Source: Heliocidaris erythrogramma (Eukaryota; Echinodermata; Echinoidea; Camarodonta; Echinometridae). From it: a DNA stretch of 64,000 bases. Where the stretch lies: assembly GCA_025617745.1 (NCBI GenBank), contig CM046858.1, forward strand, positions 38,592,350 through 38,656,349, written 5' to 3'. Below the pieces are notes generated by a model. It did no database searches. It saw only the letters and a list, made by a program, of their open reading frames with translations, and had not been told where the DNA came from. The translations under genes and the position numbers were made by a program. Each line of letters opens with the position of its first letter. The first letter of the stretch is position 1. Positions 1,265 through 64,000 of this stretch are shown one piece after another.

Positions 1265-1600
1265 GCCTCCTCACGATCTTAATTGGACTATAAATGTACA
1301 ATCAAAAGCACACGTCCAACGATTAAGATTCTGTGAGTCTAGTCAGTTTTGACGATTTTTTTTATACATACATATACACTTAAGTAGTAAAAAAAAATAG
1401 ATATATAAATATCGACATAATATGTCATATATCATTTAATAAAACCGATCTTTCTTTTTTTTGTATTTGTGTTGATAATAAAATCCTGTCCGCTCTAGTC
1501 ACCGTCCTGAAACTATATGCTTGATACAGCGCTCGAACAAACATTAAGTATGACATAAAAGTCTGGGCGGAAAATTAACACACAATTCTATGTACATAGT
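1265..1600 (-). promoter_or_regulatory. conserved 5' flank of the deaminase-like gene
   Basis: Read on the minus strand, this block aligns piecewise with the roughly 380 bases before each array ORF. Shared strings include TATGTCATACTTAATG, CAGGACGGTGACT, TAGAGCGGACA, TATGTCGATAT, CGTTGGACGT and AAGATCGTGA, the last just before the start codon. A/T-rich TATA-like strings lie near 1400-1412. Conservation between two copies that differ clearly in coding sequence suggests a retained promoter or 5' UTR. No specific factor site is claimed. Confidence 0.45.
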
Positions 1601-5208: not shown

Positions 5209-5213
5209 TCTTT

Positions 5214-38131: not shown

Positions 38132-38196
38132 GTTTCCTAATAAATTGGGAAAAGTCAGAGTTAGTTCCTACTCGCAGCCCAGTTTTTCTGGGGGCG

Positions 38197-43387: not shown

Positions 43388-43393
43388 GACAGA

Positions 43394-43570
43394 ATGGTAT
43401 ATTGCAATATAAACACGGAGAAGGAAATATGCTTAATTGATAAAGCATTGGACAAAATTGAAGAGAAAGTGACTGAAAGTTTACTAAAGGTCAATTTTGA
43501 CAGTACATTGGATACATGTACATTTCATATCGAACTTTACTGGGAGCAATCAATTGTCAGAGATGTGTAA
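43394..43570 (+). CDS. small ORF present in every array unit (58 aa)
   Basis: It reads M-V-Y-C-N-I-N-T-E-K-E-I-C-L-I-D and ends Y-W-E-Q-S-I-V-R-D-V. Identical frames occur in the other units, for example 45617-45793. It lies 72 bases downstream of each deaminase-like stop. A donor-like GGTAAGTG overlaps that stop and an acceptor-like GACAG precedes this ORF, but joining them gives an immediate TGA. I do not recognise it. It may be a stray fragment of the same mobile element that left the YADD pieces. Confidence 0.2.
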   Translation: MVYCNINTEKEICLIDKALDKIEEKVTESLLKVNFDSTLDTCTFHIELYWEQSIVRDV

Positions 43571-43641
43571 TGTTCCCATTTGTGATGAACCTGTGCATAG
43601 GGGTGTCAGTGTTTTAGAAGTAAAAATTGATAATAATTACG

Positions 43642-43683
43642 GGTTATGCTGATGATACTGTAACTATATGTGTATACGGAGAA
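43642..43683 (+). pseudogene. reverse-transcriptase-like fragment, YADDTV type (in each unit)
   Basis: G-Y-A-D-D-T-V-T-I-C-V-Y-G-E is followed by a stop. Just before it, one frame away, R-G-V-S-V-L-E-V-K-I-D-N-N-Y resembles the strand that precedes the catalytic YADD of LINE reverse transcriptases. It is repeated in every unit at the same offset. The motif is short, so the call is tentative. Confidence 0.4.
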
Positions 43684-43921
43684 TAGAGAACAACGCAAAA
43701 ATTGCATTCATGATCTAAAAGATGGCACTAGTTGCTAGCAAGGCAATATACTGGCTATGTCAAGTCCTGTTTATGGAACAGAAACAAGGACAGAAAAGGG
43801 TTTAAAAAAAGGAGTCGAAAATATGTCATGGAGCAGTTTTAAGCCAAAAACCATGAAAAGAAAGGAAAAGAATTTTCCTTTCTTTACATCACAAGTGGGA
43901 ACTTTAAACACAAGAATATAG

Positions 43922-44020
43922 GCCTACGCAGACGACTGTGTTATCTACTCCGACATCAAGACACAACTCGACGCGACTAACCTACAGGACGACTTGGACA
44001 GACTTTCTGCATTGTGTGGG
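43922..44020 (+). pseudogene. LINE reverse transcriptase fragment, YADDCVIY type (in each unit)
   Basis: A-Y-A-D-D-C-V-I-Y-S-D-I-K, then L-D-A-T-N-L-Q-D-D-L-D-R-L, is the palm-domain segment of CR1/jockey-type reverse transcriptase from the catalytic Y-A-D-D through the following helix. It stops abruptly where the conserved 5' flank of the deaminase-like gene begins. The same fragment starts at 46145, 48363, 50581, 52799, 55016, 57233, 59451, 61669 and 63888. Confidence 0.8.
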
Positions 44021-44021
44021 A

Positions 44022-44404
44022 ATTCGATCCCCGACCAGACGATTTATTATGTCATACTTAATGCATGAAGTGTTCGAGCATGTATCGAGCATACACGAGC
44101 AGGTTTGTCAGGACGGTGACTTTTATACTATAGAGCGGACACGATTTATCCAACCCCCCAAAAAATTAGATACCCCCCGAAAAAAAAACAGAAAAGAAAA
44201 GAAAAGAAAAAAAGAAAAAAAGAGTTTTTATTAAATAATATATGGCATATGTCGATATATTTTCCATTTTTTATTTTTTATTACTTATAAGTATATAATT
44301 TCTGTAAGTATAAATTTTTATATTTTTTGGGCTCCAAACTGACTAAACGCACAAAATCTTTACCGTTGGACGTTTGTACTTTTGATTGTACTCCAAGATC
44401 GTGA
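44022..44404 (+). promoter_or_regulatory. conserved 5' flank of array gene copy 1
   Basis: This block before the ATG matches the flank at 1265-1600. It contains an A/G-rich tract (44182-44225), TATA-like strings (TATAAGTATATAATTT at about 44286 and AAATTTTTATATTTTTTGG at about 44312) and CCGTTGGACGTTTGTAC near 44363. The equivalent precedes every ORF of the array. The promoter role is inferred from conservation and position. Confidence 0.4.
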
Positions 44405-45544
44405 ATGAGGAGCATCAATCTGCCCTCCCCACAGATTGTTTTCTACAATCATAACCGTGGTCGAAAACAGTCTGCTGTTTTAATTTCATACGATCTTAAC
44501 AGCACTCCCAACGGCAACGAACAAAATGAATTCGAGTCTGTTGACTTTGATTTCATATTTCCAGATGGGGGTGGAATAGGGAAACGAGTAATCGCTGCTA
44601 CTTATTCTGAACGTAAGCATGCTGAAGAGAGGGTGTTAGATTCATTTGAGCTGCATTTAAAAAATCTGTGCCGGAACAAGTCTTATAAACTAAGGTTGTT
44701 TACGTATTATTCATGCTGTAATAAATGTACCCTTAGAGTGGAAGAATTTGTGAAGGAAATGCAATGTTACTGTGAGAAGGTGGAACTTTCTATCGAATAT
44801 GTTGAAACGTACTACTCGCCAAGGATGACAAGCCAAGAATCCGAACGGGCATTTGAAAATTTCCTTGCTCTTCAAGACAAGCTGACAGATGTCACCGTAT
44901 GTCGTAAGACCAATGCCCTCTCGAAAACAAATTTCTTTTATCATGAAATGGAAAGTAAGACCCGTATGAACTACGAAGATACATTCTCAAGCATCATTCG
45001 ACCATCTTGTAGATCTGTTAATAAAAGATTTTGCAAAAACTGGGTTTGTTATATTCCTGGAAAGGGTGGATTACATCTATACCCCCTTTTAATCAATCTT
45101 CCTCCAGTTTTGAAATACAACCACGACGGTGCTTGCACCAAAATAGTAGAAAACGGGGATAAAAATGGGCCATTGCATTTTTCAATTTCCGATGGCATCA
45201 GTGATATTGAGGTGAAGCCCTTTGTATTCCTGTCCTCCTATGATGGTTGCTTTACTTTGCCTTTTGAGTCCTGTCCAAAAACCAAAGTGGAAGCAGGAAA
45301 TGAAAAGATCGTTATAAACAATAAATGCATAGCTTTAAAAAATGCCATTCCGTACAGTGGGTATATACTACATGGAAAAACAATTGACTTAGAATTGGGC
45401 TTTTGTGATAATCCGTATGTTGAATACGAAGACAAAGATACACTACTTCCTAATCCCACATTTCAGGACAATTTTCTTGAGAGTCAAGTAGTTGAAATCA
45501 TACCTGAAAGAATAAAGGATCAAAATGACAGGGAACTTTGGTAA
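44405..45544 (+). CDS. AID/APOBEC-like deaminase, array copy 1
   Basis: An intact intronless ORF of 379 codons. The N-terminal half fits the AID/APOBEC deaminase fold: a first strand R-G-R-K-Q-S-A-V-L-I near 18-27, then H72-A73-E74 (zinc ligand and proton-shuttle Glu), then T-Y-Y-S-C-C-N-K-C at 100-108 with C105 and C108 as likely zinc ligands. The H72 to C105 distance of 33 is close to that in AID, but the usual Pro before the first Cys is Cys104. Residues about 170-379 form a second region with conserved cysteines (202, 210, 215, 244, 282, 290, 308, 334) that I do not recognise. There is no signal peptide or membrane segment. In other animals such enzymes deaminate cytosine in DNA or RNA, in immunity or editing; activity here is inferred. 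This copy has Val133 where all others have Ala, and Glu368. Confidence 0.75.
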   Translation: MRSINLPSPQIVFYNHNRGRKQSAVLISYDLNSTPNGNEQNEFESVDFDFIFPDGGGIGKRVIAATYSERKHAEERVLDSFELHLKNLCRNKSYKLRLFTYYSCCNKCTLRVEEFVKEMQCYCEKVELSIEYVETYYSPRMTSQESERAFENFLALQDKLTDVTVCRKTNALSKTNFFYHEMESKTRMNYEDTFSSIIRPSCRSVNKRFCKNWVCYIPGKGGLHLYPLLINLPPVLKYNHDGACTKIVENGDKNGPLHFSISDGISDIEVKPFVFLSSYDGCFTLPFESCPKTKVEAGNEKIVINNKCIALKNAIPYSGYILHGKTIDLELGFCDNPYVEYEDKDTLLPNPTFQDNFLESQVVEIIPERIKDQNDRELW

Positions 45545-46622
45545 GTGAACAGTTTTGTGTCAGACCTCTGAGCGATACAATGAAAGCCATGTTGTGTACA
45601 TGAGAATGATGACAGAATGGTATATTGCAATATAAACACGGAGAAGGAAATATGCTTAATTGATAAAGCATTGGACAAAATTGAAGAGAAAGTGACTGAA
45701 AGTTTACTAAAGGTCAATTTTGACAGTACATTGGATACATGTACATTTCATATCGAACTTTACTGGGAGCAATCAATTGTCAGAGATGTGTAATGTTCCC
45801 ATTTGTGATGAACCTGTGCATAGGGGTGTCAGTGTTTTAGAAGTAAAAATTGATAATAATTACGGGTTATGCTGATGATACTGTAACTATATGTGTATAC
45901 GGAGAATAGAGAACAACGCAAAAATTGCATTCATGATCTAAAAGATGGCACTAGTTGCTAGCAAGGCAATATACTGGCTATGTCAAGTCCTGTTTATGGA
46001 ACAGAAACAAGGACAGAAAAGGGTTTAAAAAAAGGAGTCGAAAATATGTCATGGAGCACTTTTAAGCCAAAAACCATGAAAAGAAAGGAAAAGAATTTTC
46101 CTTTCTTTACATCACAAGTGGGAACTTTAAACACAAGAATATAGGCCTACGCAGACGACTGTGTTATCTACTCCGACATCAAGACACAACTCGACGCGAC
46201 TAACCTACAGGACGACTTGGACAGACTTTCTGCATTGTGTGGGAATTCGATCCCCGACCAGACGATTTATTATGTCATACTTAATGCATGAAGTGTTCGA
46301 GCATGTATCGAGCATACACGAGCAGGTTTGTCAGGACGGTGACTTTTATACTATAGAGCGGACACGATTTATCCAACCCCCAAAAAAATTAGATACCCCC
46401 CGAAAAAAAAACAGAAAAGAAAAGAAAAAAAGAAAAAAAGAGTTTTTATTAAATAATATATGGCATATGTCGATATATTTTCCATTTTTTATTTTTTATT
46501 ACTTATAAGTATATAATTTCTGTAAGTATAAATTTTTATATTTTTTGGGCTCCAAACTGACTAAACGCACAAAATCTTTACCGTTGGACGTTTGTACTTT
46601 TGATTGTACTCCAAGATCGTGA

Positions 46623-47762
46623 ATGAGGAGCATCAATCTGCCCTCCCCACAGATTGTTTTCTACAATCATAACCGTGGTCGAAAACAGTCTGCTGTTTTA
46701 ATTTCATACGATCTTAACGGCACTCCCAACGGCAACGAACAAAATGAATTCGAGTCTGTTGACTTTGATTTCATATTTCCAGATGGGGGTGGAATAGGGA
46801 AACGAGTAATCGCTGCTACTTATTCTGAACGTAAGCATGCTGAAGAGAGGGTGTTAGATTCATTTGAGCTGCATTTAAAAAATCTGTGCCGGAACAAGTC
46901 TTATAAACTAAGGTTGTTTACGTATTATTCATGCTGTAATAAATGTACCCTTAGAGTGGAAGAATTTGTGAAGGAAATGCAATGTTACTGTGAGAAGGTG
47001 GAACTTTCTATCGAATATGCTGAAACGTACTACTCGCCAAGGATGACAAGCCAAGAATCCGAACGGGCATTTGAAAATTTCCTTGCTCTTCAAGACAAGC
47101 TGACAGATGTCACCGTATGTCGTAAGACCAATGCCCTCTCGAAAACAAATTTCTTTTATCATGAAATGGAAAGTAAGACCCGTATGAACTACGAAGATAC
47201 ATTCTCAAGCATCATTCGACCATCTTGTAGATCTGTTAATAAAAGATTTTGCAAAAACTGGGTTTGTTATATTCCTGGAAAGGGTGGATTACATCTATAC
47301 CCCCTTTTAATCAATCTTCCTCCAGTTTTGAAATACAACCACGACGGTGCTTGCACCAAAATAGTAGAAAACGGGGATAAAAATGGGCCATTGCATTTTT
47401 CAATTTCCGATGGCATCAGTGATATTGAGGTGAAGCCCTTTGTATTCCTGTCCTCCTATGATGGTTGCTTTACTTTGCCTTTTGAGTCCTGTCCAAAAAC
47501 CAAAGTGGAAGCAGGAAATGAAAAGATCGTTATAAACAATAAATGCATAGCTTTAAAAAATGCCATTCCGTACAGTGGGTATATACTACATGGAAAAACA
47601 ATTGACTTAGAATTGGGCTTTTGTGATAATCCGTACGTTGAATACGAAGACAAAGATACACTACTTCCTAATCCCACATTTCAGGACAATTTTCTTGAGA
47701 GTCAAGTAGTTGAAATCATACCTGAAAGAATAAAGGATCAAAATGACAGGGAACTTTGGTAA
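46623..47762 (+). CDS. AID/APOBEC-like deaminase, array copy 2
   Basis: Same 379-codon ORF with H72-A-E74, C105 and C108 unchanged. Its private difference is Gly33 where the other copies have Ser33. It carries Glu368, as do copies 1 and 4. No stop, shift or intron interrupts it. The spacer before it has CACTTTTAAG where copy 1 has CAGTTTTAAG. Confidence 0.75.
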   Translation: MRSINLPSPQIVFYNHNRGRKQSAVLISYDLNGTPNGNEQNEFESVDFDFIFPDGGGIGKRVIAATYSERKHAEERVLDSFELHLKNLCRNKSYKLRLFTYYSCCNKCTLRVEEFVKEMQCYCEKVELSIEYAETYYSPRMTSQESERAFENFLALQDKLTDVTVCRKTNALSKTNFFYHEMESKTRMNYEDTFSSIIRPSCRSVNKRFCKNWVCYIPGKGGLHLYPLLINLPPVLKYNHDGACTKIVENGDKNGPLHFSISDGISDIEVKPFVFLSSYDGCFTLPFESCPKTKVEAGNEKIVINNKCIALKNAIPYSGYILHGKTIDLELGFCDNPYVEYEDKDTLLPNPTFQDNFLESQVVEIIPERIKDQNDRELW

Positions 47763-48840
47763 GTGAACAGTTTTGTGTCAGACCTCTGAGCGATACAATG
47801 AAAGCCATGTTGTGTACATGAGAATGATGACAGAATGGTATATTGCAATATAAACACGGAGAAGGAAATATGCTTAATTGATAAAGCATTGGACAAAATT
47901 GAAGAGAAAGTGACTGAAAGTTTACTAAAGGTCAATTTTGACAGTACATTGGATACATGTACATTTCATATCGAACTTTACTGGGAGCAATCAATTGTCA
48001 GAGATGTGTAATGTTCCCATTTGTGATGAACCTGTGCATAGGGGTGTCAGTGTTTTAGAAGTAAAAATTGATAATAATTACGGGTTATGCTGATGATACT
48101 GTAACTATATGTGTATACGGAGAATAGAGAACAACGCAAAAATTGCATTCATGATCTAAAAGATGGCACTAGTTGCTAGCAAGGCAATATACTGGCTATG
48201 TCAAGTCCTGTTTATGGAACAGAAACAAGGACAGAAAAGGGTTTAAAAAAAAGAGTCGAAAATATGTCATGGAGCACTTTTAAGCCAAAAACCATGAAAA
48301 GAAAGGAAAAGAATTTTCCTTTCTTTACATCACAAGTGGGAACTTTAAACACAAGAATATAGGCCTACGCAGACGACTGTGTTATCTACTCCGACATCAA
48401 GACACAACTCGACGCGACTAACCTACAGGACGACTTGGACAGACTTTCTGCATTGTGTGGGAATTCGATCCCCGACCAGAAGATTTATTATGTCATACTT
48501 AATGCATGAAGTGTTCGAGCATGTATCGAGCATACACGAGCAGGTTTGTCAGGACGGTGACTTTTATACTATAGAGCGGACACGATTTATCCAACCCCCC
48601 AAAAAATTAGATACCCCCCGAAAAAAAAACAGAAAAGAAAAGAAAAAAAGAAAAAAAGAGTTTTTATTAAATAATATATGGCATATGTCGATATATTTTC
48701 CATTTTTTATTTTTTATTACTTATAAGTATATAATTTCTGTAAGTATAAATTTTTATATTTTTTGGGCTCCAAACTGACTAAACGCACAAAATCTTTACC
48801 GTTGGACGTTTGTACTTTTGATTGTACTCCAAGATCGTGA

Positions 48841-49980
48841 ATGAGGAGCATCAATCTGCCCTCCCCACAGATTGTTTTCTACAATCATAACCGTGGTCGA
48901 AAACAGTCTGCTGTTTTAATTTCATACGATCTTAACAGCACTCCCAACGGCAACGAACAAAATGAATTCGAGTCTGTTGACTTTGATTTCATATTTCCAG
49001 ATGGGGGTGGAATAGGGAAACGAGTAATCGCTGCTACTTATTCTGAACGTAAGCATGCTGAAGAGAGGGTGTTAGATTCATTTGAGCTGCATTTAAAAAA
49101 TCTGTGCCGGAACAAGTCTTATAAACTAAGGTTGTTTACGTATTATTCATGCTGTAATAAATGTACCCTTAGAGTGGAAGAATTTGTGAAGGAAATGCAA
49201 TGTTACTGTGAGAAGGTGGAACTTTCTATCGAATATGCTGAAACGTACTACTCGCCAAGGATGACAAGCCAAGAATCCGAACGGGCATTTGAAAATTTCC
49301 TTGCTCTTCAAGACAAGCTGACAGATGTCACCGTATGTCGTAAGACCAATGCCCTCTCGAAAACAAATTTCTTTTATCATGAAATGGAAAGTAAGACCCG
49401 TATGAACTACGAAGATACATTCTCAAGCATCATTCGACCATCTTGTAGATCTGTTAATAAAAGATTTTGCAAAAACTGGGTTTGTTATATTCCTGGAAAG
49501 GGTGGATTACATCTATACCCCCTTTTAATCAATCTTCCTCCAGTTTTGAAATACAACCACGACGGTGCTTGCACCAAAATAGTAGAAAACGGGGATAAAA
49601 ATGGGCCATTGCATTTTTCAATTTCCGATGGCATCAGTGATATTGAGGTGAAGCCCTTTGTATTTCTGTCCTCCTATGATGGTTGCTTTACTTTGCCTTT
49701 TGAGTCCTGTCCAAAAACCAAAGTGGAAGCAGGAAATGAAAAGATCGTTATAAACAATAAATGCATAGCTTTAAAAAATGCCATTCCGTACAGTGGGTAT
49801 ATACTACATGGAAAAACAATTGACTTAGAATTGGGCTTTTGTGATAATCCGTACGTTGAATACGAAGACAAAGATACACTACTTCCTAATCCCACATTTC
49901 AGGACAATTTTCTTGAGAGTCAAGTAGTTGAAATCATACCTAAAAGAATAAAGGATCAAAATGACAGGGAACTTTGGTAA
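48841..49980 (+). CDS. AID/APOBEC-like deaminase, array copy 3
   Basis: Intact, with the catalytic motif unchanged. It has Lys368 (GAA to AAA), a private silent C-to-T near 49665 and a C-to-A just after the stop. Two spacer variants upstream (G-to-A at 48252 and C-to-A at 48481) are shared only with the unit of copy 5, linking units 3 and 5 more closely to each other than to unit 4 between them. Confidence 0.75.
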   Translation: MRSINLPSPQIVFYNHNRGRKQSAVLISYDLNSTPNGNEQNEFESVDFDFIFPDGGGIGKRVIAATYSERKHAEERVLDSFELHLKNLCRNKSYKLRLFTYYSCCNKCTLRVEEFVKEMQCYCEKVELSIEYAETYYSPRMTSQESERAFENFLALQDKLTDVTVCRKTNALSKTNFFYHEMESKTRMNYEDTFSSIIRPSCRSVNKRFCKNWVCYIPGKGGLHLYPLLINLPPVLKYNHDGACTKIVENGDKNGPLHFSISDGISDIEVKPFVFLSSYDGCFTLPFESCPKTKVEAGNEKIVINNKCIALKNAIPYSGYILHGKTIDLELGFCDNPYVEYEDKDTLLPNPTFQDNFLESQVVEIIPKRIKDQNDRELW

Positions 49981-51058
49981 GTGAACAGTTTTGTGTAAGA
50001 CCTCTGAGCGATACAATGAAAGCCATGTTGTGTACATGAGAATGATGACAGAATGGTATATTGCAATATAAACACGGAGAAGGAAATATGCTTAATTGAT
50101 AAAGCATTGGACAAAATTGAAGAGAAAGTGACTGAAAGTTTACTAAAGGTCAATTTTGACAGTACATTGGATACATGTACATTTCATATCGAACTTTACT
50201 GGGAGCAATCAATTGTCAGAGATGTGTAATGTTCCCATTTGTGATGAACCTGTGCATAGGGGTGTCAGTGTTTTAGAAGTAAAAATTGATAATAATTACG
50301 GGTTATGCTGATGATACTGTAACTATATGTGTATACGGAGAATAGAGAACAACGCAAAAATTGCATTCATGATCTAAAAGATGGCACTAGTTGCTAGCAA
50401 GGCAATATACTGGCTATGTCAAGTCCTGTTTATGGAACAGAAACAAGGACAGAAAAGGGTTTAAAAAAAGGAGTCGAAAATATGTCATGGAGCACTTTTA
50501 AGCCAAAAACCATGAAAAGAAAGGAAAAGAATTTTCCTTTCTTTACATCACAAGTGGGAACTTTAAACACAAGAATATAGGCCTACGCAGACGACTGTGT
50601 TATCTACTCCGACATCAAGACACAACTCGACGCGACTAACCTACAGGACGACTTGGACAGACTTTCTGCATTGTGTGGGAATTCGATCCCCGACCAGACG
50701 ATTTATTATGTCATACTTAATGCATGAAGTGTTCGAGCATGTATCGAGCATACACGAGCAGGTTTGTCAGGACGGTGACTTTTATACTATAGAGCGGACA
50801 CGATTTATCCAACCCCCAAAAAAATTAGATACCCCCCGAAAAAAAAACAGAAAAGAAAAGAAAAAAAGAAAAAAAGAGTTTTTATTAAATAATATATGGC
50901 ATATGTCGATATATTTTCCATTTTTTATTTTTTATTACTTATAAGTATATAATTTCTGTAAGTATAAATTTTTATATTTTTTGGGCTCCAAACTGACTAA
51001 ACGCACAAAATCTTTACCGTTGGACGTTTGTACTTTTGATTGTACTCCAAGATCGTGA

Positions 51059-52198
51059 ATGAGGAGCATCAATCTGCCCTCCCCACAGATTGTTTTCTAC
51101 AATCATAACCGTGGTCGAAAACAGTCTGCTGTTTTAATTTCATACGATCTTAACAGCACTCCCAACGGCAACGAACAAAATGAATTCGAGTCTGTTGACT
51201 TTGATTTCATATTTCCAGATGGGGGTGGAATAGGGAAACGAGTAATCGCTGCTACTTATTCTGAACGTAAGCATGCTGAAGAGAGGGTGTTAGATTCATT
51301 TGAGCTGCATTTAAAAAATCTGTGCCGGAACAAGTCTTATAAACTAAGGTTGTTTACGTATTATTCATGCTGTAATAAATGTACCCTTAGAGTGGAAGAA
51401 TTTGTGAAGGAAATGCAATGTTACTGTGAGAAGGTGGAACTTTCTATCGAATATGCTGAAACGTACTACTCGCCAAGGATGACAAGCCAAGAATCCGAAC
51501 GGGCATTTGAAAATTTCCTTGCTCTTCAAGACAAGCTGACAGATGTCACCGTATGTCGTAAGACCAATGCCCTCTCGAAAACAAATTTCTTTTATCATGA
51601 AATGGAAAGTAAGACCCGTATGAACTACGAAGATACATTCTCAAGCATCATTCGACCATCTTGTAGATCTGTTAATAAAAGATTTTGCAAAAACTGGGTT
51701 TGTTATATTCCTGGAAAGGGTGGATTACATCTATACCCCCTTTTAATCAATCTTCCTCCAGTTTTGAAATACAACCACGACGGTGCTTGCACCAAAATAG
51801 TAGAAAACGGGGATAAAAATGGGCCATTGCATTTTTCAATTTCCGATGGCATCAGTGATATTGAGGTGAAGCCCTTTGTATTCCTGTCCTCCTATGATGG
51901 TTGCTTTACTTTGCCTTTTGAGTCCTGTCCAAAAACCAAAGTGGAAGCAGGAAATGAAAAGATCGTTATAAACAATAAATGCATAGCTTTAAAAAATGCC
52001 ATTCCGTACAGTGGGTATATACTACATGGAAAAACAATTGACTTAGAATTGGGCTTTTGTGATAATCCGTACGTTGAATACGAAGACAAAGATACACTAC
52101 TTCCTAATCCCACATTTCAGGACAATTTTCTTGAGAGTCAAGTAGTTGAAATCATACCTGAAAGAATAAAGGATCAAAATGACAGGGAACTTTGGTAA
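51059..52198 (+). CDS. AID/APOBEC-like deaminase, array copy 4
   Basis: Intact and without a private amino-acid change that I can see: Ser33, Ala133 and Glu368. It is the last copy with Glu368; every later copy has Lys368. Confidence 0.75.
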   Translation: MRSINLPSPQIVFYNHNRGRKQSAVLISYDLNSTPNGNEQNEFESVDFDFIFPDGGGIGKRVIAATYSERKHAEERVLDSFELHLKNLCRNKSYKLRLFTYYSCCNKCTLRVEEFVKEMQCYCEKVELSIEYAETYYSPRMTSQESERAFENFLALQDKLTDVTVCRKTNALSKTNFFYHEMESKTRMNYEDTFSSIIRPSCRSVNKRFCKNWVCYIPGKGGLHLYPLLINLPPVLKYNHDGACTKIVENGDKNGPLHFSISDGISDIEVKPFVFLSSYDGCFTLPFESCPKTKVEAGNEKIVINNKCIALKNAIPYSGYILHGKTIDLELGFCDNPYVEYEDKDTLLPNPTFQDNFLESQVVEIIPERIKDQNDRELW

Positions 52199-53275
52199 GT
52201 GAACAGTTTTGTGTCAGACCTCTGAGCGATACAATGAAAGCCATGTTGTGTACATGAGAATGATGACAGAATGGTATATTGCAATATAAACACGGAGAAG
52301 GAAATATGCTTAATTGATAAAGCATTGGACAAAATTGAAGAGAAAGTGACTGAAAGTTTACTAAAGGTCAATTTTGACAGTACATTGGATACATGTACAT
52401 TTCATATCGAACTTTACTGGGAGCAATCAATTGTCAGAGATGTGTAATGTTCCCATTTGTGATGAACCTGTGCATAGGGGTGTCAGTGTTTTAGAAGTAA
52501 AAATTGATAATAATTACGGGTTATGCTGATGATACTGTAACTATATGTGTATACGGAGAATAGAGAACAACGCAAAAATTGCATTCATGATCTAAAAGAT
52601 GGCACTAGTTGCTAGCAAGGCAATATACTGGCTATGTCAAGTCCTGTTTATGGAACAGAAACAAGGACAGAAAAGGGTTTAAAAAAAAGAGTCGAAAATA
52701 TGTCATGGAGCACTTTTAAGCCAAAAACCATGAAAAGAAAGGAAAAGAATTTTCCTTTCTTTACATCACAAGTGGGAACTTTAAACACAAGAATATAGGC
52801 CTACGCAGACGACTGTGTTATCTACTCCGACATCAAGACACAACTCGACGCGACTAACCTACAGGACGACTTGGACAGACTTTCTGCATTGTGTGGGAAT
52901 TCGATCCCCGACCAGAAGATTTATTATGTCATACTTAATGCATGAAGTGTTCGAGCATGTATCGAGCATACACGAGCAGGTTTGTCAGGACGGTGACTTT
53001 TATACTATAGAGCGGACACGATTTATCCAACCCCCAAAAAATTAGATACCCCCCGAAAAAAAAACAGAAAAGAAAAGAAAAAAAGAAAAAAAGAGTTTTT
53101 ATTAAATAATATATGGCATATGTCGATATATTTTCCATTTTTTATTTTTTATTACTTATAAGTATATAATTTCTGTAAGTATAAATTTTTATATTTTTTG
53201 GGCTCCAAACTGACTAAACGCACAAAATCTTTACCGTTGGACGTTTGTACTTTTGATTGTACTCCAAGATCGTGA

Positions 53276-54415
53276 ATGAGGAGCATCAATCTGCCCTCCC
53301 CACAGATTGTTTTCTACAATCATAACCGTGGTCGAAAACAGTCTGCTGTTTTAATTTCATACGATCTTAACAGCACTCCCAACGGCAACGAACAAAATGA
53401 ATTCGAGTCTGTTGACTTTGATTTCATATTTCCAGATGGGGGTGGAATAGGGAAACGAGTAATCGCTGCTACTTATTCTGAACGTAAGCATGCTGAAGAG
53501 AGGGTGTTAGATTCATTTGAGCTGCATTTAAAAAATCTGTGCCGGAACAAGTCTTATAAACTAAGGTTGTTTACGTATTATTCATGCTGTAATAAATGTA
53601 CCCTTAGAGTGGAAGAATTTGTGAAGGAAATGCAATGTTACTGTGAGAAGGTGGAACTTTCTATCGAATATGCTGAAACGTACTACTCGCCAAGGATGAC
53701 AAGCCAAGAATCCGAACGGGCATTTGAAAATTTCCTTGCTCTTCAAGACAAGCTGACAGATGTCACCGTATGTCGTAAGACCAATGCCCTCTCGAAAACA
53801 AATTTCTTTTATCATGAAATGGAAAGTAAGACCCGTATGAACTACGAAGATACATTCTCAAGCATCATTCGACCATCTTGTAGATCTGTTAATAAAAGAT
53901 TTTGCAAAAACTGGGTTTGTTATATTCCTGGAAAGGGTGGATTACATCTATACCCCCTTTTAATCAATCTTCCTCCAGTTTTGAAATACAACCACGACGG
54001 TGCTTGCACCAAAATAGTAGAAAACGGGGATAAAAATGGGCCATTGCATTTTTCAATTTCCGATGGCATCAGTGATATTGAGGTGAAGCCCTTTGTATTC
54101 CTGTCCTCCTATGATGGTTGCTTTACTTTGCCTTTTGAGTCCTGTCCAAAAACCAAAGTGGAAGCAGGAAATGAAAAGATCGTTATAAACAATAAATGCA
54201 TAGCTTTAAAAAATGCCATTCCGTACAGTGGGTATATACTACATGGAAAAACAATTGACTTAGAATTGGGCTTTTGTGATAATCCGTACGTTGAATACGA
54301 AGACAAAGATACACTACTTCCTAATCCCACATTTCAGGACAATTTTCTTGAGAGTCAAGTAGTTGAAATCATACCTAAAAGAATAAAGGATCAAAATGAC
54401 AGGGAACTTTGGTAA
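53276..54415 (+). CDS. AID/APOBEC-like deaminase, array copy 5
   Basis: Intact, with Lys368. The spacer upstream shares the G-to-A (52688) and C-to-A (52917) variants with unit 3. It has one A fewer in the CCCCCAAAAAATTAG string, making the unit 2217 bp. Confidence 0.75.
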   Translation: MRSINLPSPQIVFYNHNRGRKQSAVLISYDLNSTPNGNEQNEFESVDFDFIFPDGGGIGKRVIAATYSERKHAEERVLDSFELHLKNLCRNKSYKLRLFTYYSCCNKCTLRVEEFVKEMQCYCEKVELSIEYAETYYSPRMTSQESERAFENFLALQDKLTDVTVCRKTNALSKTNFFYHEMESKTRMNYEDTFSSIIRPSCRSVNKRFCKNWVCYIPGKGGLHLYPLLINLPPVLKYNHDGACTKIVENGDKNGPLHFSISDGISDIEVKPFVFLSSYDGCFTLPFESCPKTKVEAGNEKIVINNKCIALKNAIPYSGYILHGKTIDLELGFCDNPYVEYEDKDTLLPNPTFQDNFLESQVVEIIPKRIKDQNDRELW

Positions 54416-55492
54416 GTGAACAGTTTTGTGTCAGACCTCTGAGCGATACAATGAAAGCCATGTTGTGTACATGAGAATGATGACAGAATGGTATATTGCA
54501 ATATAAACACGGAGAAGGAAATATGCTTAATTGATAAAGCATTGGACAAAATTGAAGAGAAAGTGACTGAAAGTTTACTAAAGGTCAATTTTGACAGTAC
54601 ATTGGATACATGTACATTTCATATCGAACTTTACTGGGAGCAATCAATTGTCAGAGATGTGTAATGTTCCCATTTGTGATGAACCTGTGCATAGGGGTGT
54701 CAGTGTTTTAGAAGTAAAAATTGATAATAATTACGGGTTATGCTGATGATACTGTAACTATATGTGTATACGGAGAATAGAGAACAACGCAAAAATTGCA
54801 TTCATGATCTAAAAGATGGCACTAGTTGCTAGCAAGGCAATATACTGGCTATGTCAAGTCCTGTTTATGGAACAGAAACAAGGACAGAAAAGGGTTTAAA
54901 AAAAGGAGTCGAAAATATGTCATGGAGCACTTTTAAGCCAAAAACCATGAAAAGAAAGGAAAAGAATTTTCCTTTCTTTACATCACAAGTGGGAACTTTA
55001 AACACAAGAATATAGGCCTACGCAGACGACTGTGTTATCTACTCCGACATCAAGACACAACTCGACGCGACTAACCTACAGGACGACTTGGACAGACTTT
55101 CTGCATTGTGTGGGAATTCGATCCCCGACCAGACGATTTATTATGTCATACTTAATGCATGAAGTGTTCGAGCATGTATCGAGCATACACGAGCAGGTTT
55201 GTCAGGACGGTGACTTTTATACTATAGAGCGGACACGATTTATCCAACCCCCAAAAAATTAGATACCCCCCGAAAAAAAAACAGAAAAGAAAAGAAAAAA
55301 AGAAAAAAAGAGTTTTTATTAAATAATATATGGCATATGTCGATATATTTTCCATTTTTTATTTTTTATTACTTATAAGTATATAATTTCTGTAAGTATA
55401 AATTTTTATATTTTTTGGGCTCCAAACTGACTAAACGCACAAAATCTTTACCGTTGGACGTTTGTACTTTTGATTGTACTCCAAGATCGTGA

Positions 55493-56632
55493 ATGAGGAG
55501 CATCAATCTGCCCTCCCCACAGATTGTTTTCTACAATCATAACCGTGGTCGAAAACAGTCTGCTGTTTTAATTTCATACGATCTTAACAGCACTCCCAAC
55601 GGCAACGAACAAAATGAATTCGAGTCTGTTGACTTTGATTTCATATTTCCAGATGGGGGTGGAATAGGGAAACGAGTAATCGCTGCTACTTATTCTGAAC
55701 GTAAGCATGCTGAAGAGAGGGTGTTAGATTCATTTGAGCTGCATTTAAAAAATCTGTGCCGGAACAAGTCTTATAAACTAAGGTTGTTTACGTATTATTC
55801 ATGCTGTAATAAATGTACCCTTAGAGTGGAAGAATTTGTGAAGGAAATGCAATGTTACTGTGAGAAGGTGGAACTTTCTATCGAATATGCTGAAACGTAC
55901 TACTCGCCAAGGATGACAAGCCAAGAATCCGAACGGGCATTTGAAAATTTCCTTGCTCTTCAAGACAAGCTGACAGATGTCACCGTATGTCGTAAGACCA
56001 ATGCCCTCTCGAAAACAAATTTCTTTTATCATGAAATGGAAAGTAAGACCCGTATGAACTACGAAGATACATTCTCAAGCATCATTCGACCATCTTGTAG
56101 ATCTGTTAATAAAAGATTTTGCAAAAACTGGGTTTGTTATATTCCTGGAAAGGGTGGATTACATCTATACCCCCTTTTAATCAATCTTCCTCCAGTTTTG
56201 AAATACAACCACGACGGTGCTTGCACCAAAATAGTAGAAAACGGGGATAAAAATGGGCCATTGCATTTTTCAATTTCCGATGGCATCAGTGATATTGAGG
56301 TGAAGCCCTTTGTATTCCTGTCCTCCTATGATGGTTGCTTTACTTTGCCTTTTGAGTCCTGTCCCAAAACCAAAGTGGAAGCAGGAAATGAAAAGATCGT
56401 TATAAACAATAAATGCATAGCTTTAAAAAATGCCATTCCGTACAGTGGGTATATACTACATGGAAAAACAATTGACTTAGAATTGGGCTTTTGTGATAAT
56501 CCGTACGTTGAATACGAAGACAAAGATACACTACTTCCTAATCCCACATTTCAGGACAATTTTCTTGAGAGTCAAGTAGTTGAAATCATACCTAAAAGAA
56601 TAAAGGATCAAAATGACAGGGAACTTTGGTAA
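55493..56632 (+). CDS. AID/APOBEC-like deaminase, array copy 6
   Basis: Intact, with Lys368. It has a silent A-to-C in the Pro291 codon (56365) shared only with copy 9. The unit is 2217 bp, with the same short A-run before the gene as unit 5. Confidence 0.75.
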   Translation: MRSINLPSPQIVFYNHNRGRKQSAVLISYDLNSTPNGNEQNEFESVDFDFIFPDGGGIGKRVIAATYSERKHAEERVLDSFELHLKNLCRNKSYKLRLFTYYSCCNKCTLRVEEFVKEMQCYCEKVELSIEYAETYYSPRMTSQESERAFENFLALQDKLTDVTVCRKTNALSKTNFFYHEMESKTRMNYEDTFSSIIRPSCRSVNKRFCKNWVCYIPGKGGLHLYPLLINLPPVLKYNHDGACTKIVENGDKNGPLHFSISDGISDIEVKPFVFLSSYDGCFTLPFESCPKTKVEAGNEKIVINNKCIALKNAIPYSGYILHGKTIDLELGFCDNPYVEYEDKDTLLPNPTFQDNFLESQVVEIIPKRIKDQNDRELW

Positions 56633-57710
56633 GTGAACAGTTTTGTGTCAGACCTCTGAGCGATACAATGAAAGCCATGTTGTGTACATGAGAATGATGA
56701 CAGAATGGTATATTGCAATATAAACACGGAGAAGGAAATATGCTTAATTGATAAAGCATTGGACAAAATTGAAGAGAAAGTGACTGAAAGTTTACTAAAG
56801 GTCAATTTTGACAGTACATTGGATACATGTACATTTCATATCGAACTTTACTGGGAGCAATCAATTGTCAGAGATGTGTAATGTTCCCATTTGTGATGAA
56901 CCTGTGCATAGGGGTGTCAGTGTTTTAGAAGTAAAAATTGATAATAATTACGGGTTATGCTGATGATACTGTAACTATATGTGTATACGGAGAATAGAGA
57001 ACAACGCAAAAATTGCATTCATGATCTAAAAGATGGCACTAGTTGCTAGCAAGGCAATATACTGGCTATGTCAAGTCCTGTTTATGGAACAGAAACAAGG
57101 ACAGAAAAGGGTTTAAAAAAAGGAGTCGAAAATATGTCATGGAGCACTTTTAAGCCAAAAACCATGAAAAGAAAGGAAAAGAATTTTCCTTTCTTTACAT
57201 CACAAGTGGGAACTTTAAACACAAGAATATAGGCCTACGCAGACGACTGTGTTATCTACTCCGACATCAAGACACAACTCGACGCGACTAACCTACAGGA
57301 CGACTTGGACAGACTTTCTGCATTGTGTGGGAATTCGATCCCCGACCAGACGATTTATTATGTCATACTTAATGCATGAAGTGTTCGAGCATGTATCGAG
57401 CATACACGAGCAGGTTTGTCAGGACGGTGACTTTTATACTATAGAGCGGACACGATTTATCCAACCCCCAAAAAAATTAGATACCCCCCGAAAAAAAAAC
57501 AGAAAAGAAAAGAAAAAAAGAAAAAAAGAGTTTTTATTAAATAATATATGGCATATGTCGATATATTTTCCATTTTTTATTTTTTATTACTTATAAGTAT
57601 ATAATTTCTGTAAGTATAAATTTTTATATTTTTTGGGCTCCAAACTGACTAAACGCACAAAATCTTTACCGTTGGACGTTTGTACTTTTGATTGTACTCC
57701 AAGATCGTGA

Positions 57711-58850
57711 ATGAGGAGCATCAATCTGCCCTCCCCACAGATTGTTTTCTACAATCATAACCGTGGTCGAAAACAGTCTGCTGTTTTAATTTCATACGAT
57801 CTTAACAGCACTCCCAACGGCAACGAACAAAATGAATTCGAGTCTGTTGACTTTGATTTCATATTTCCAGATGGGGGTGGAATAGGGAAACGAGTAATCG
57901 CTGCTACTTATTCTGAACGTAAGCATGCTGAAGAGAGGGTGTTAGATTCATTTGAGCTGCATTTAAAAAATCTGTGCCGGAACAAGTCTTATAAACTAAG
58001 GTTGTTTACGTATTATTCATGCTGTAATAAATGTACCCTTAGAGTGGAAGAATTTGTGAAGGAAATGCAATGTTACTGTGAGAAGGTGGAACTTTCTATC
58101 GAATATGCTGAAACGTACTACTCGCCAAGGATGACAAGCCAAGAATCCGAACGGGCATTTGAAAATTTCCTTGCTCTTCAAGACAAGCTGACAGATGTCA
58201 CCGTATGTCGTAAGACCAATGCCCTCTCGAAAACAAATTTCTTTTATCATGAAATGGAAAGTAAGACCCGTATGAACTACGAAGATACATTCTCAAGCAT
58301 CATTCGACCATCTTGTAGATCTGTTAATAAAAGATTTTGCAAAAACTGGGTTTGTTATATTCCTGGAAAGGGTGGATTACATCTATACCCCCTTTTAATC
58401 AATCTTCCTCCAGTTTTGAAATACAACCACGACGGTGCTTGCACCAAAATAGTAGAAAACGGGGATAAAAATGGGCCATTGCATTTTTCAATTTCCGATG
58501 GCATCAGTGATATTGAGGTGAAGCCCTTTGTATTCCTGTCCTCCTATGATGGTTGCTTTACTTTGCCTTTTGAGTCCTGTCCAAAAACCAAAGTGGAAGC
58601 AGGAAATGAAAAGATCGTTATAAACAATAAATGCATAGCTTTAAAAAATGCCATTCCGTACAGTGGGTATATACTACATGGAAAAACAATTGACTTAGAA
58701 TTGGGCTTTTGTGATAATCCGTACGTTGAATACGAAGACAAAGATACACTACTTCCTAATCCCACATTTCAGGACAATTTTCTTGAGAGTCAAGTAGTTG
58801 AAATCATACCTAAAAGAATAAAGGATCAAAATGACAGGGAACTTTGGTAA
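57711..58850 (+). CDS. AID/APOBEC-like deaminase, array copy 7
   Basis: Intact, with Lys368 and no private change that I can see. It may serve as the consensus for the right-hand part of the array. It is the last unit with CACTTTTAAG in its upstream spacer. Confidence 0.75.
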   Translation: MRSINLPSPQIVFYNHNRGRKQSAVLISYDLNSTPNGNEQNEFESVDFDFIFPDGGGIGKRVIAATYSERKHAEERVLDSFELHLKNLCRNKSYKLRLFTYYSCCNKCTLRVEEFVKEMQCYCEKVELSIEYAETYYSPRMTSQESERAFENFLALQDKLTDVTVCRKTNALSKTNFFYHEMESKTRMNYEDTFSSIIRPSCRSVNKRFCKNWVCYIPGKGGLHLYPLLINLPPVLKYNHDGACTKIVENGDKNGPLHFSISDGISDIEVKPFVFLSSYDGCFTLPFESCPKTKVEAGNEKIVINNKCIALKNAIPYSGYILHGKTIDLELGFCDNPYVEYEDKDTLLPNPTFQDNFLESQVVEIIPKRIKDQNDRELW

Positions 58851-59928
58851 GTGAACAGTTTTGTGTCAGACCTCTGAGCGATACAATGAAAGCCATGTTG
58901 TGTACATGAGAATGATGACAGAATGGTATATTGCAATATAAACACGGAGAAGGAAATATGCTTAATTGATAAAGCATTGGACAAAATTGAAGAGAAAGTG
59001 ACTGAAAGTTTACTAAAGGTCAATTTTGACAGTACATTGGATACATGTACATTTCATATCGAACTTTACTGGGAGCAATCAATTGTCAGAGATGTGTAAT
59101 GTTCCCATTTGTGATGAACCTGTGCATAGGGGTGTCAGTGTTTTAGAAGTAAAAATTGATAATAATTACGGGTTATGCTGATGATACTGTAACTATATGT
59201 GTATACGGAGAATAGAGAACAACGCAAAAATTGCATTCATGATCTAAAAGATGGCACTAGTTGCTAGCAAGGCAATATACTGGCTATGTCAAGTCCTGTT
59301 TATGGAACAGAAACAAGGACAGAAAAGGGTTTAAAAAAAGGAGTCGAAAATATGTCATGGAGCAGTTTTAAGCCAAAAACCATGAAAAGAAAGGAAAAGA
59401 ATTTTCCTTTCTTTACATCACAAGTGGGAACTTTAAACACAAGAATATAGGCCTACGCAGACGACTGTGTTATCTACTCCGACATCAAGACACAACTCGA
59501 CGCGACTAACCTACAGGACGACTTGGACAGACTTTCTGCATTGTGTGGGAATTCGATCCCCGACCAGACGATTTATTATGTCATACTTAATGCATGAAGT
59601 GTTCGAGCATGTATCGAGCATACACGAGCAGGTTTGTCAGGACGGTGACTTTTATACTATAGAGCGGACACGATTTATCCAACCCCCAAAAAAATTAGAT
59701 ACCCCCCGAAAAAAAAACAGAAAAGAAAAGAAAAAAAGAAAAAAAGAGTTTTTATTAAATAATATATGGCATATGTCGATATATTTTCCATTTTTTATTT
59801 TTTATTACTTATAAGTATATAATTTCTGTAAGTATAAATTTTTATATTTTTTGGGCTCCAAACTGACTAAACGCACAAAATCTTTACCGTTGGACGTTTG
59901 TACTTTTGATTGTACTCCAAGATCGTGA

Positions 59929-61068
59929 ATGAGGAGCATCAATCTGCCCTCCCCACAGATTGTTTTCTACAATCATAACCGTGGTCGAAAACAGTCTGCT
60001 GTTTTAATTTCATACGATCTTAACAGCACTCCCAACGGCAACGAACAAAATGAATTCGAGTCTGTTGACTTTGATTTCATATTTCCAGATGGGGGTGGAA
60101 TAGGGAAACGAGTAATCGCTGCTACTTATTCTGAACGTAAGCATGCTGAAGAGAGGGTGTTAGATTCATTTGAGCTGCATTTAAAAAATCTGTGCCGGAA
60201 CAAGTCTTATAAACTAAGGTTGTTTACGTATTATTCATGCTGTAATAAATGTACCCTTAGAGTGGAAGAATTTGTGAAGGAAATGCAATGTTACTGTGAG
60301 AAGGTGGAACTTTCTATCGAATATGCTGAAACGTACTACTCGCCAAGGATGACAAGCCAAGAATCCGAACGGGCATTTGAAAATTTCCTTGCTCTTCAAG
60401 ACAAGCTGACAGATGTCACCGTATGTCGTAAGACCAATGCCCTCTCGAAAACAAATTTCTTTTATCATGAAATGGAAAGTAAGACCCGTATGAACTACGA
60501 AGATACATTCTCAAGCATCATTCGACCATCTTGTAGATCTGTTAATAAAAGATTTTGCAAAAACTGGGTTTGTTATATTCCTGGAAAGGGTGGATTACAT
60601 CTATACCCCCTTTTAATCAATCTTCCTCCAGTTTTGAAATACAACCACGACGGTGCTTGCACCAAAATAGTAGAAAACGGGGATAAAAATGGGCCATTGC
60701 ATTTTTCAATTTCCGATGGCATCAGTGATATTGAGGTGAAGCCCTTTGTATTCCTGTCCTCCTATGATGGTTGCTTTACTTTGCCTTTTGAGTCCTGTCC
60801 AAAAACCAAAGTGGAAGCAGGAAATGAAAAGATCGTTATAAACAATAAATGCATAGCTTTAAAAAATGCCATTCCGTACAGTGGGTATATACTACATGGA
60901 AAAACAATTGACTTAGAATTGGGCTTTTGTGATAATCCGTACGTTGAATACGAAGACAAAGATACACTACTTCCTAATCCCACATTTCAGGACAATTTTC
61001 TTGAGAGTCAAGTAGTTGAAATCATACCTAAAAGAATAAAGGATCAAAATGACAGGGAACTTTGGTAA
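59929..61068 (+). CDS. AID/APOBEC-like deaminase, array copy 8
   Basis: Intact, with Lys368. Its spacer returns to CAGTTTTAAG (near 59365), the version otherwise found in unit 1 and in units 9 and 10, which separates the array into blocks. Confidence 0.75.
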   Translation: MRSINLPSPQIVFYNHNRGRKQSAVLISYDLNSTPNGNEQNEFESVDFDFIFPDGGGIGKRVIAATYSERKHAEERVLDSFELHLKNLCRNKSYKLRLFTYYSCCNKCTLRVEEFVKEMQCYCEKVELSIEYAETYYSPRMTSQESERAFENFLALQDKLTDVTVCRKTNALSKTNFFYHEMESKTRMNYEDTFSSIIRPSCRSVNKRFCKNWVCYIPGKGGLHLYPLLINLPPVLKYNHDGACTKIVENGDKNGPLHFSISDGISDIEVKPFVFLSSYDGCFTLPFESCPKTKVEAGNEKIVINNKCIALKNAIPYSGYILHGKTIDLELGFCDNPYVEYEDKDTLLPNPTFQDNFLESQVVEIIPKRIKDQNDRELW

Positions 61069-62147
61069 GTGAACAGTTTTGTGTCAGACCTCTGAGCGAT
61101 ACAATGAAAGCCATGTTGTGTACATGAGAATGATGACAGAATGGTATATTGCAATATAAACACGGAGAAGGAAATATGCTTAATTGATAAAGCATTGGAC
61201 AAAATTGAAGAGAAAGTGACTGAAAGTTTACTAAAGGTCAATTTTGACAGTACATTGGATACATGTACATTTCATATCGAACTTTACTGGGAGCAATCAA
61301 TTGTCAGAGATGTGTAATGTTCCCATTTGTGATGAACCTGTGCATAGGGGTGTCAGTGTTTTAGAAGTAAAAATTGATAATAATTACGGGTTATGCTGAT
61401 GATACTGTAACTATATGTGTATACGGAGAATAGAGAACAACGCAAAAATTGCATTCATGATCTAAAAGATGGCACTAGTTGCTAGCAAGGCAATATACTG
61501 GCTATGTCAAGTCCTGTTTATGGAACAGAAACAAGGACAGAAAAGGGTTTAAAAAAAGGAGTCGAAAATATGTCATGGAGCAGTTTTAAGCCAAAAACCA
61601 TGAAAAGAAAGGAAAAGAATTTTCCTTTCTTTACATCACAAGTGGGAACTTTAAACACAAGAATATAGGCCTACGCAGACGACTGTGTTATCTACTCCGA
61701 CATCAAGACACAACTCGACGCGACTAACCTACAGGACGACTTGGACAGACTTTCTGCATTGTGTGGGAATTCGATCCCCGACCAGACGATTTATTATGTC
61801 ATACTTAATGCATGAAGTGTTCGAGCATGTATCGAGCATACACGAGCAGGTTTGTCAGGACGGTGACTTTTATACTATAGAGCGGACACGATTTATCCAA
61901 CCCCCAAAAAAATTAGATACCCCCCGAAAAAAAAAACAGAAAAGAAAAGAAAAAAAGAAAAAAAGAGTTTTTATTAAATAATATATGGCATATGTCGATA
62001 TATTTTCCATTTTTTATTTTTTATTACTTATAAGTATATAATTTCTGTAAGTATAAATTTTTATATTTTTTGGGCTCCAAACTGACTAAACGCACAAAAT
62101 CTTTACCGTTGGACGTTTGTACTTTTGATTGTACTCCAAGATCGTGA

Positions 62148-63287
62148 ATGAGGAGCATCAATCTGCCCTCCCCACAGATTGTTTTCTACAATCATAACCG
62201 TGGTCGAAAACAGTCTGCTGTTTTAATTTCATACGATCTTAACAGCACTCCCAACGGCAACGAACAAAATGAATTCGAGTCTGTTGACTTTGATTTCATA
62301 TTTCCAGATGGGGGTGGAATAGGGAAACGAGTAATCGCTGCTACTTATTCTGAACGTAAGCATGCTGAAGAGAGGGTGTTAGATTCATTTGAGCTGCATT
62401 TAAAAAATCTGTGCCGGAACAAGTCTTATAAACTAAGGTTGTTTACGTATTATTCATGCTGTAATAAATGTACCCTTAGAGTGGAAGAATTTGTGAAGGA
62501 AATGCAATGTTACTGTGAGAAGGTGGAACTTTCTATCGAATATGCTGAAACGTACTACTCGCCAAGGATGACAAGCCAAGAATCCGAACGGGCATTTGAA
62601 AATTTCCTTGCTCTTCAAGACAAGCTGACAGATGTCACCGTATGTCGTAAGACCAATGCCCTCTCGAAAACAAATTTCTTTTATCATGAAATGGAAAGTA
62701 AGACCCGTATGAACTACGAAGATACATTCTCAAGCATCATTCGACCATCTTGTAGATCTGTTAATAAAAGATTTTGCAAAAACTGGGTTTGTTATATTCC
62801 TGGAAAGGGTGGATTACATCTATACCCCCTTTTAATCAATCTTCCTCCAGTTTTGAAATACAACCACGACGGTGCTTGCACCAAAATAGTAGAAAACGGG
62901 GATAAAAATGGGCCATTGCATTTTTCAATTTCCGATGGCATCAGTGATATTGAGGTGAAGCCCTTTGTATTCCTGTCCTCCTATGATGGTTGCTTTACTT
63001 TGCCTTTTGAGTCCTGTCCCAAAACCAAAGTGGAAGCAGGAAATGAAAAGATCGTTATAAACAATAAATGCATAGCTTTAAAAAATGCCATTCCGTACAG
63101 TGGGTATATACTACATGGAAAAACAATTGACTTAGAATTGGGCTTTTGTGATAATCCGTACGTTGAATACGAAGACAAAGATACACTACTTCCTAATCCC
63201 ACATTTCAGGACAATTTTCTTGAGAGTCAAGTAGTTGAAATCATACCTAAAAGAATAAAGGATCAAAATGACAGGGAACTTTGGTAA
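62148..63287 (+). CDS. AID/APOBEC-like deaminase, array copy 9
   Basis: Intact, with Lys368 and the silent Pro291 variant (63020) shared with copy 6. One extra A in the A-run near 61926-61935 makes the unit 2219 bp. Confidence 0.75.
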   Translation: MRSINLPSPQIVFYNHNRGRKQSAVLISYDLNSTPNGNEQNEFESVDFDFIFPDGGGIGKRVIAATYSERKHAEERVLDSFELHLKNLCRNKSYKLRLFTYYSCCNKCTLRVEEFVKEMQCYCEKVELSIEYAETYYSPRMTSQESERAFENFLALQDKLTDVTVCRKTNALSKTNFFYHEMESKTRMNYEDTFSSIIRPSCRSVNKRFCKNWVCYIPGKGGLHLYPLLINLPPVLKYNHDGACTKIVENGDKNGPLHFSISDGISDIEVKPFVFLSSYDGCFTLPFESCPKTKVEAGNEKIVINNKCIALKNAIPYSGYILHGKTIDLELGFCDNPYVEYEDKDTLLPNPTFQDNFLESQVVEIIPKRIKDQNDRELW

Positions 63288-64000
63288 GTGAACAGTTTTG
63301 TGTCAGACCTCTGAGCGATACAATGAAAGCCATGTTGTGTACATGAGAATGATGACAGAATGGTATATTGCAATATAAACACGGAGAAGGAAATATGCTT
63401 AATTGATAAAGCATTGGACAAAATTGAAGAGAAAGTGACTGAAAGTTTACTAAAGGTCAATTTTGACAGTACATTGGATACATGTACATTTCATATCGAA
63501 CTTTACTGGGAGCAATCAATTGTCAGAGATGTGTAATGTTCCCATTTGTGATGAACCTGTGCATAGGGGTGTCAGTGTTTTAGAAGTAAAAATTGATAAT
63601 AATTACGGGTTATGCTGATGATACTGTAACTATATGTGTATACGGAGAATAGAGAACAACGCAAAAATTGCATTCATGATCTAAAAGATGGCACTAGTTG
63701 CTAGCAAGGCAATATACTGGCTATGTCAAGTCCTGTTTATGGAACAGAAACAAGGACAGAAAAGGGTTTAAAAAAAGGAGTCGAAAATATGTCATGGAGC
63801 AGTTTTAAGCCAAAAACCATGAAAAGAAAGGAAAAGAATTTTCCTTTCTTTACATCACAAGTGGGAACTTTAAACACAAGAATATAGGCCTACGCAGACG
63901 ACTGTGTTATCTACTCCGACATCAAGACACAACTCGACGCGACTAACCTACAGGACGACTTGGACAGACTTTCTGCATTGTGTGGGAATTCGATCCCCGA
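63288..64000 (+). repeat. start of a tenth array unit, cut by the window end
   Basis: It contains the spacer, the small ORF at 63360-63536 and both YADD fragments (the second from 63888), and stops within the string GGGAATTCGATCCCCGA. A tenth gene copy is expected just outside the window. Confidence 0.95.

Follow-up and report, generated by a model that had tools for sequence, protein, structure and literature searches.

What do the near-identical tandem genes on the right-hand side of a 64,000-nucleotide stretch of the genome of the sea urchin Heliocidaris erythrogramma encode, and why are so many of the copies intact? The whole stretch (hereafter, the window) corresponds to C6:38592350-38656349, and the genome searched comprises 1.064 Gb in 26 contigs. 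The explanation that we cautiously favour, largely by analogy, is that the genes encode an intracellular cytosine deaminase of innate immunity, extended by a long C-terminal part, and that unequal crossing-over amplified them for dosage.

The array itself and its resemblance to the deaminase family are solid. The first-pass annotation described nine intact 379-codon open reading frames (ORFs) repeated head to tail every ~2218 bp, and this is what we found (n = 9, + strand, 44405-63287), with start-to-start spacings of 2217-2219 bp. The first 300 nucleotides of the repeat unit are present ten times across 43388-63653, each 100% identical (rounded), and the first of the nine spacings between these unit starts is 2223 bp. 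The features of the array, followed by two related features of the window, are as follows.

43388..45610, + strand: first repeat unit, ~1 kb of leader/spacer and then the gene
44405..45544, + strand: copy 1, ORF of 379 amino acids (aa), AID/APOBEC-like; V133 and E368 relative to the majority protein
46623..47762, + strand: copy 2, 379-aa ORF; G33 and E368 relative to the majority protein
48841..49980, + strand: copy 3, 379-aa ORF; majority protein
51059..52198, + strand: copy 4, 379-aa ORF; E368 relative to the majority protein
53276..54415, + strand: copy 5, 379-aa ORF; majority protein
55493..56632, + strand: copy 6, 379-aa ORF; majority protein
57711..58850, + strand: copy 7, 379-aa ORF; majority protein
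59929..61068, + strand: copy 8, 379-aa ORF; majority protein
62148..63287, + strand: copy 9, 379-aa ORF; majority protein, the query for all searches
63354..64000, + strand: beginning of the tenth unit, whose ORF starts past the window end
46145..46288, + strand: short relic in the spacer with an A-Y-A-D-D reading, from translation; other units have the same spacer
97..1270, - strand: relative of the array gene, inverted and broken, with open pieces at 341-1270 and 97-369

The array runs rightward beyond the window. An index of the first 18 bases of the gene revealed 17 gene starts in the window and loci L009 and L010, comprising 13 intact units, a frameshifted 14th unit, two intact copies at ~98% identity and one fragment. 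The two ~98% copies are older and sit past a retroelement-like insertion. The earlier statement that no copy has a stop or frameshift holds for the copies in the window and fails beyond it, at the 14th unit; a second limit, inside the window, is the broken relative at 97-1270.

The deaminase assignment comes from residues 68-146, which score above the Pfam curated cut-offs for several AID/APOBEC families, APOBEC2 being the best match. As copy 9 passes these cut-offs for five families (APOBEC2, NAD1, SNAD4, NAD2, and APOBEC_N) and copy 1 for four (the same without NAD1), the match judged at the sequence level exceeds chance, and the family membership proposed in the first-pass annotation withstood the profile search by which it could have been refuted. 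The HAE and the C-x-x-C 33 residues further on, also pointed out there, are H72-A-E74 and C-N-K-C (105-108), and all seven aligned proteins keep H72, E74, C105, and C108 unchanged. The published definition of the AID/APOBEC family includes H[AVS]E, 24-36 residues and then CxxC, together with a proline in PCxxC (PMC5956068). The array protein has the first part, with 29 residues between E74 and position 104. The proline is missing, the site reading S-C-C-x-x-C, and we therefore refer to the protein as AID/APOBEC-like and not as a classical member.

Two other groups were considered. APOBEC4-like genes are described by a match to the APOBEC4 profile and by the absence of introns (PMC8201067), and SNADs (secreted AID/APOBEC-like deaminases) by an N-terminal signal peptide (PMC11004436). 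Each array gene is one open frame without introns, and APOBEC4 was not among the Pfam matches to E 10, with inclusion of an APOBEC4 model in the library unconfirmed. The first 30 residues showed no hydrophobic leader when inspected by eye, without a predictor; a TGA directly precedes the ATG of the array gene, and there may be an upstream exon.

Structure prediction was informative for the N-terminal part. The model of residues 1-205 is of moderate confidence, and the 50 Foldseek matches listed for it, out of 319 with E ≤ 10, were all AID/APOBEC proteins, the best E-value among them being 1.3e-3 and the best fold matches including APOBEC3H, 3G, and 3B. In this model HAE opens a helix at 73-88 and CxxC opens the next helix at 106-122, which is the order of the deaminase fold. 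In helix order and in its Foldseek matches, the predicted fold agrees with that of a deaminase, and the fold-based refutation named in the first-pass annotation was not borne out.

A deaminase fold could also serve something other than mutation of polynucleotides, and this is the alternative that survives best, although we consider it unlikely. The S-C-C-x-x-C site and the C-terminal half would then be used for binding, for scaffolding or on another substrate. Non-mutator roles have been discussed for APOBEC2 and APOBEC4, and APOBEC2 is the best Pfam match here. The proline is replaced by cysteine in the array, the copy at C20 and two C12 relatives (all S-C-C-x-x-C), and by serine in a third C12 relative (S-S-C); the C3 gene and database proteins P0001-P0004 have S-P-C. 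Several of the sea urchin SpAIDL proteins are described as inactive in E. coli assays (PMC5956068). Against this alternative stands the invariance of the four zinc and catalytic residues.

The C-terminal half, about half of the protein, is conserved and common to the array and the C12 proteins. Residues 201-379 and the C-terminal parts of two relatives had no Pfam match to E 10, and no match was obtained against PDB profiles (eight chains listed to E 10, the best being ClpP with E 1). We rejected a second, degenerate deaminase domain in this half, since HxE and CxxC each occur only once in the entire protein and there was no Pfam or PDB match. One high-scoring profile comparison was discarded because both of its alignments share residues.

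To place the array protein among its relatives we compared it with other loci of the genome and with database proteins. The single copy on another contig, C20, is 73-75% identical to the array, has a 393-codon frame that is open throughout, ends at its own stop ~18 residues short of the end of the array protein, and carries an insert just before HAE that the array does not have. Judged from reading frames, this copy (L013, ~4590-5768, - strand) is flanked by reverse-transcriptase/integrase-like frames, as if the gene family were sitting among retroelements. A distant family occupies five loci at C12, where the relatives are long single open frames, and a third group is found at two loci at C3; identity to the array is 25-27% for three aligned C12 proteins and 23% for one C3 protein. 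The frames of two C12 loci ~154 kb apart (L014 and L015) match base for base up to position 1413 and diverge after that, close to the C-terminal end; their stop-to-stop frame opens with a long isoleucine-coding simple repeat.

The array protein alone as query retrieved no database relative at E 0.001, the search being one that depends on exact words in common. Profile searches retrieved four shorter proteins (P0001-P0004), which the C3 gene resembles; those with a species name are from sea urchins only, i.e., Lytechinus pictus (P0002), Diadema antillarum (P0003), and Lytechinus variegatus (P0004), an observation that by itself points to a sea urchin as the probable host. P0002-P0004 and the C3 gene share HAE, CxxC, and the same core with the array protein, but are only 162-204 aa long, have S-P-C-x-x-C and lack the C-terminal half. 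The identity of the P0002-P0004 group to the array is 22-29% over part of the array protein.

The array is very recent. Its 14 tight units differ at 34 substitution columns, 14 of them within the 1140-bp gene, and between any two units there are 1-25 substitutions in 2.2 kb. Six different proteins are encoded by the 15 intact copies, of which nine give the same protein, and ten of the 15 variable codons change the amino acid. Because substitutions and indels differ from unit to unit, the array is no software duplicate of a single unit, though the true copy number may differ from that of the assembly. The spacer was duplicated along with the gene, indicating copying at the DNA level and ruling out RNA-mediated copying of the array; unequal crossing-over, an ordinary mechanism, presumably produced it.

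Passive, satellite-like expansion, or an effect of the assembly, is also conceivable though improbable in our view: the array would then serve no dosage function under selection, its copies being intact because they are very young. With so few differences between units, intact frames within the array say little about selection; one unit, the 14th, is broken, and the left edge of the array adjoins a GAAAA-rich simple-repeat tract, similar to a tract present within the units. The distinct substitutions and indels of each unit argue the other way, as do the two older intact copies and the C20 copy, whose open frame, at 73-75% identity, slightly lowered the already small probability that we gave to a passive array.

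Evidence on selection comes from the more diverged pairs. The ratio of nonsynonymous to synonymous substitution rates (dN/dS) over the whole frame was 0.73 for the array and C20, and 0.72, 0.73, and 0.78 for three C12 pairs. Split by domain, it was 1.08 (array-C20), 1.03 (C12 b-a), and 0.86 (C12 c-b) in the deaminase part, and, in the same order, 0.54, 0.67, and 0.72 in the C-terminal part. The ~165 coding substitutions between the array and C20 introduced no internal stop, with 8.3 expected under neutrality (P ~3e-4), and the openness of the C20 copy indicates that its reading frame was kept. Three C12 comparisons (~220-350 substitutions) likewise had no stops, with 12-18 expected, and carry less weight, since each frame had been trimmed at its own stop, sequences are shared between the comparisons and the ends vary. 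We read this pattern in the sequences as coding kept with fast change, as a host-parasite conflict would give.

With the reading of a dosage-amplified immune deaminase we infer, beyond what the sequences show, catalytic activity, a substrate, expression, cellular location, a role in immunity, and the way in which the amplification came about. The array would encode a single-exon, intracellular, AID/APOBEC-like zinc-dependent cytosine deaminase, in which H72, C105, and C108 would hold the zinc and E74 would act as the proton shuttle. Viruses or retroelements would be the targets, with C converted to U in their single-stranded DNA or RNA, and the C-terminal half would supply target recognition or regulation. 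The recent amplification of the 2.2-kb units by unequal crossing-over would have raised dosage under selection from genetic parasites.

Several observations weigh against this reading. The model of the full-length protein has a mean predicted local distance difference test score of only 31.9, the template modelling scores of the residue 1-205 model are low (0.31-0.42 by query length), the PCxxC proline is absent, and the C20, C12, and C3 relatives and P0001-P0003 all fall below the Pfam cut-offs. The departure from neutrality is borderline in the four comparisons (p 0.08, 0.04, 0.08, and 0.04), a dN/dS near 1 in the deaminase domain also fits weak or relaxed constraint, and the changes between newer and older array copies are six nonsynonymous to one synonymous. 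The C-terminal ends of the C12 relatives vary, with one or two stops interrupting four of the five C12 matches to L017; in the three C12 relatives examined, the stops fall in the last 10-25 codons. Finally, the frameshifted 14th unit is open for only 228 aa, and the relative at 97-1270 (- strand), whose pieces have 78% and 82% protein identity to the array gene, is broken. In the latter, HAE can be read twice close by, as HAEVRV and HAEERV.

Genes of this kind have been reported before, as deaminase arrays in lampreys and mammals and as a family in a sea urchin, and by analogy with the sea urchin SpAIDLs and lamprey CDA1L1 the array is likely an innate-immune deaminase. The published description of SpAIDL1-9 gives nine loci, with the reference sequence frame-shifted at five, expression highest in the gut and at least two members mutating DNA in E. 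coli (Liu et al. 2018, PMC5956068). They share with the array the HxE and CxxC catalytic residues of a sea urchin AID/APOBEC-like family; by that description, SpAIDL1/4a are 193-194 aa long with PCxxC, whereas the array proteins have 379 aa, S-C-C-x-x-C and a C-terminal half that is conserved, and their genes are tightly and recently arrayed. No SpAIDL appeared among the database protein matches, in searches that depend on exact words in common and on comparable length.

The lamprey CDA1L1 genes are reported as single-exon, arrayed, variable in copy number, and able to restrict herpes simplex virus 1, and the mammalian APOBEC3 cluster as deaminase genes in tandem (PMC8962628). Lamprey CDA1 and CDA1L1 belong to another lineage and have the motif SWSPC, and the array copies differ from APOBEC3 in being near-identical and single-exon with one deaminase domain each. 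Mammalian APOBEC3 members are diverged and multi-exon. We know of no counterpart of the array's C-terminal half in lamprey CDA1/CDA1L1. No sea urchin array of this kind was found described in the open-licence literature, as judged from titles and abstract openings. The novelty lies in the two parts of the protein, in its altered motif and in an array that is tight, recent, and for the most part intact.

That the array instead diversifies the host's own immune genes or transcripts, e.g., Trf/185-333, seems very doubtful: in another sea urchin, 30% of the nucleotide differences between SpTrf genes and complementary DNAs are reported to have a genomic C where the complementary DNA has U (PMC5491942) and somatic point changes are reported in SpTrf genes, but the authors of the latter report could not conclude any link to AID genes (PMC6563789), and dosage fits amplification better than targeted editing does.

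Elsewhere in the window, a 748-codon frame at 5829-8075 (- strand) matches RVT_1 (E 7.2e-37) and is non-long-terminal-repeat (non-LTR) retrotransposon-like. A run of open frames at 35382-39579 (+ strand), with an RVT_1 match (1e-16) at 37208-38131, resembles a DIRS-like element; judged from reading frames, comparable ones are found on the right-hand side of the array (L010, L011), near the broken 14th unit. The spacer relic at 46145..46288 we take, by its A-Y-A-D-D motif, to be that of a non-LTR reverse transcriptase. A 341-bp tandem repeat (2.2 copies, 91% matches) lies at 18178-18911.

As an invertebrate deaminase array that is young, high in copy number and mostly intact, this locus offers a natural experiment on the dosage amplification of a potential mutator, one that parallels lamprey CDA1L1 and mammalian APOBEC3, and its C-terminal half and altered active-site motif are testable novelties. 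The array is also a candidate source for the unassigned C-to-U changes that immune transcripts of sea urchins are reported to carry. The boldest form of this idea, which we regard as a long shot, is that lineage-specific two-part deaminases, combining the altered S-C-C zinc site with a new C-terminal recognition domain and recently amplified in dosage, might be what changes C to U in the immune genes or transcripts of sea urchins and would represent an invertebrate counterpart of AID/CDA.

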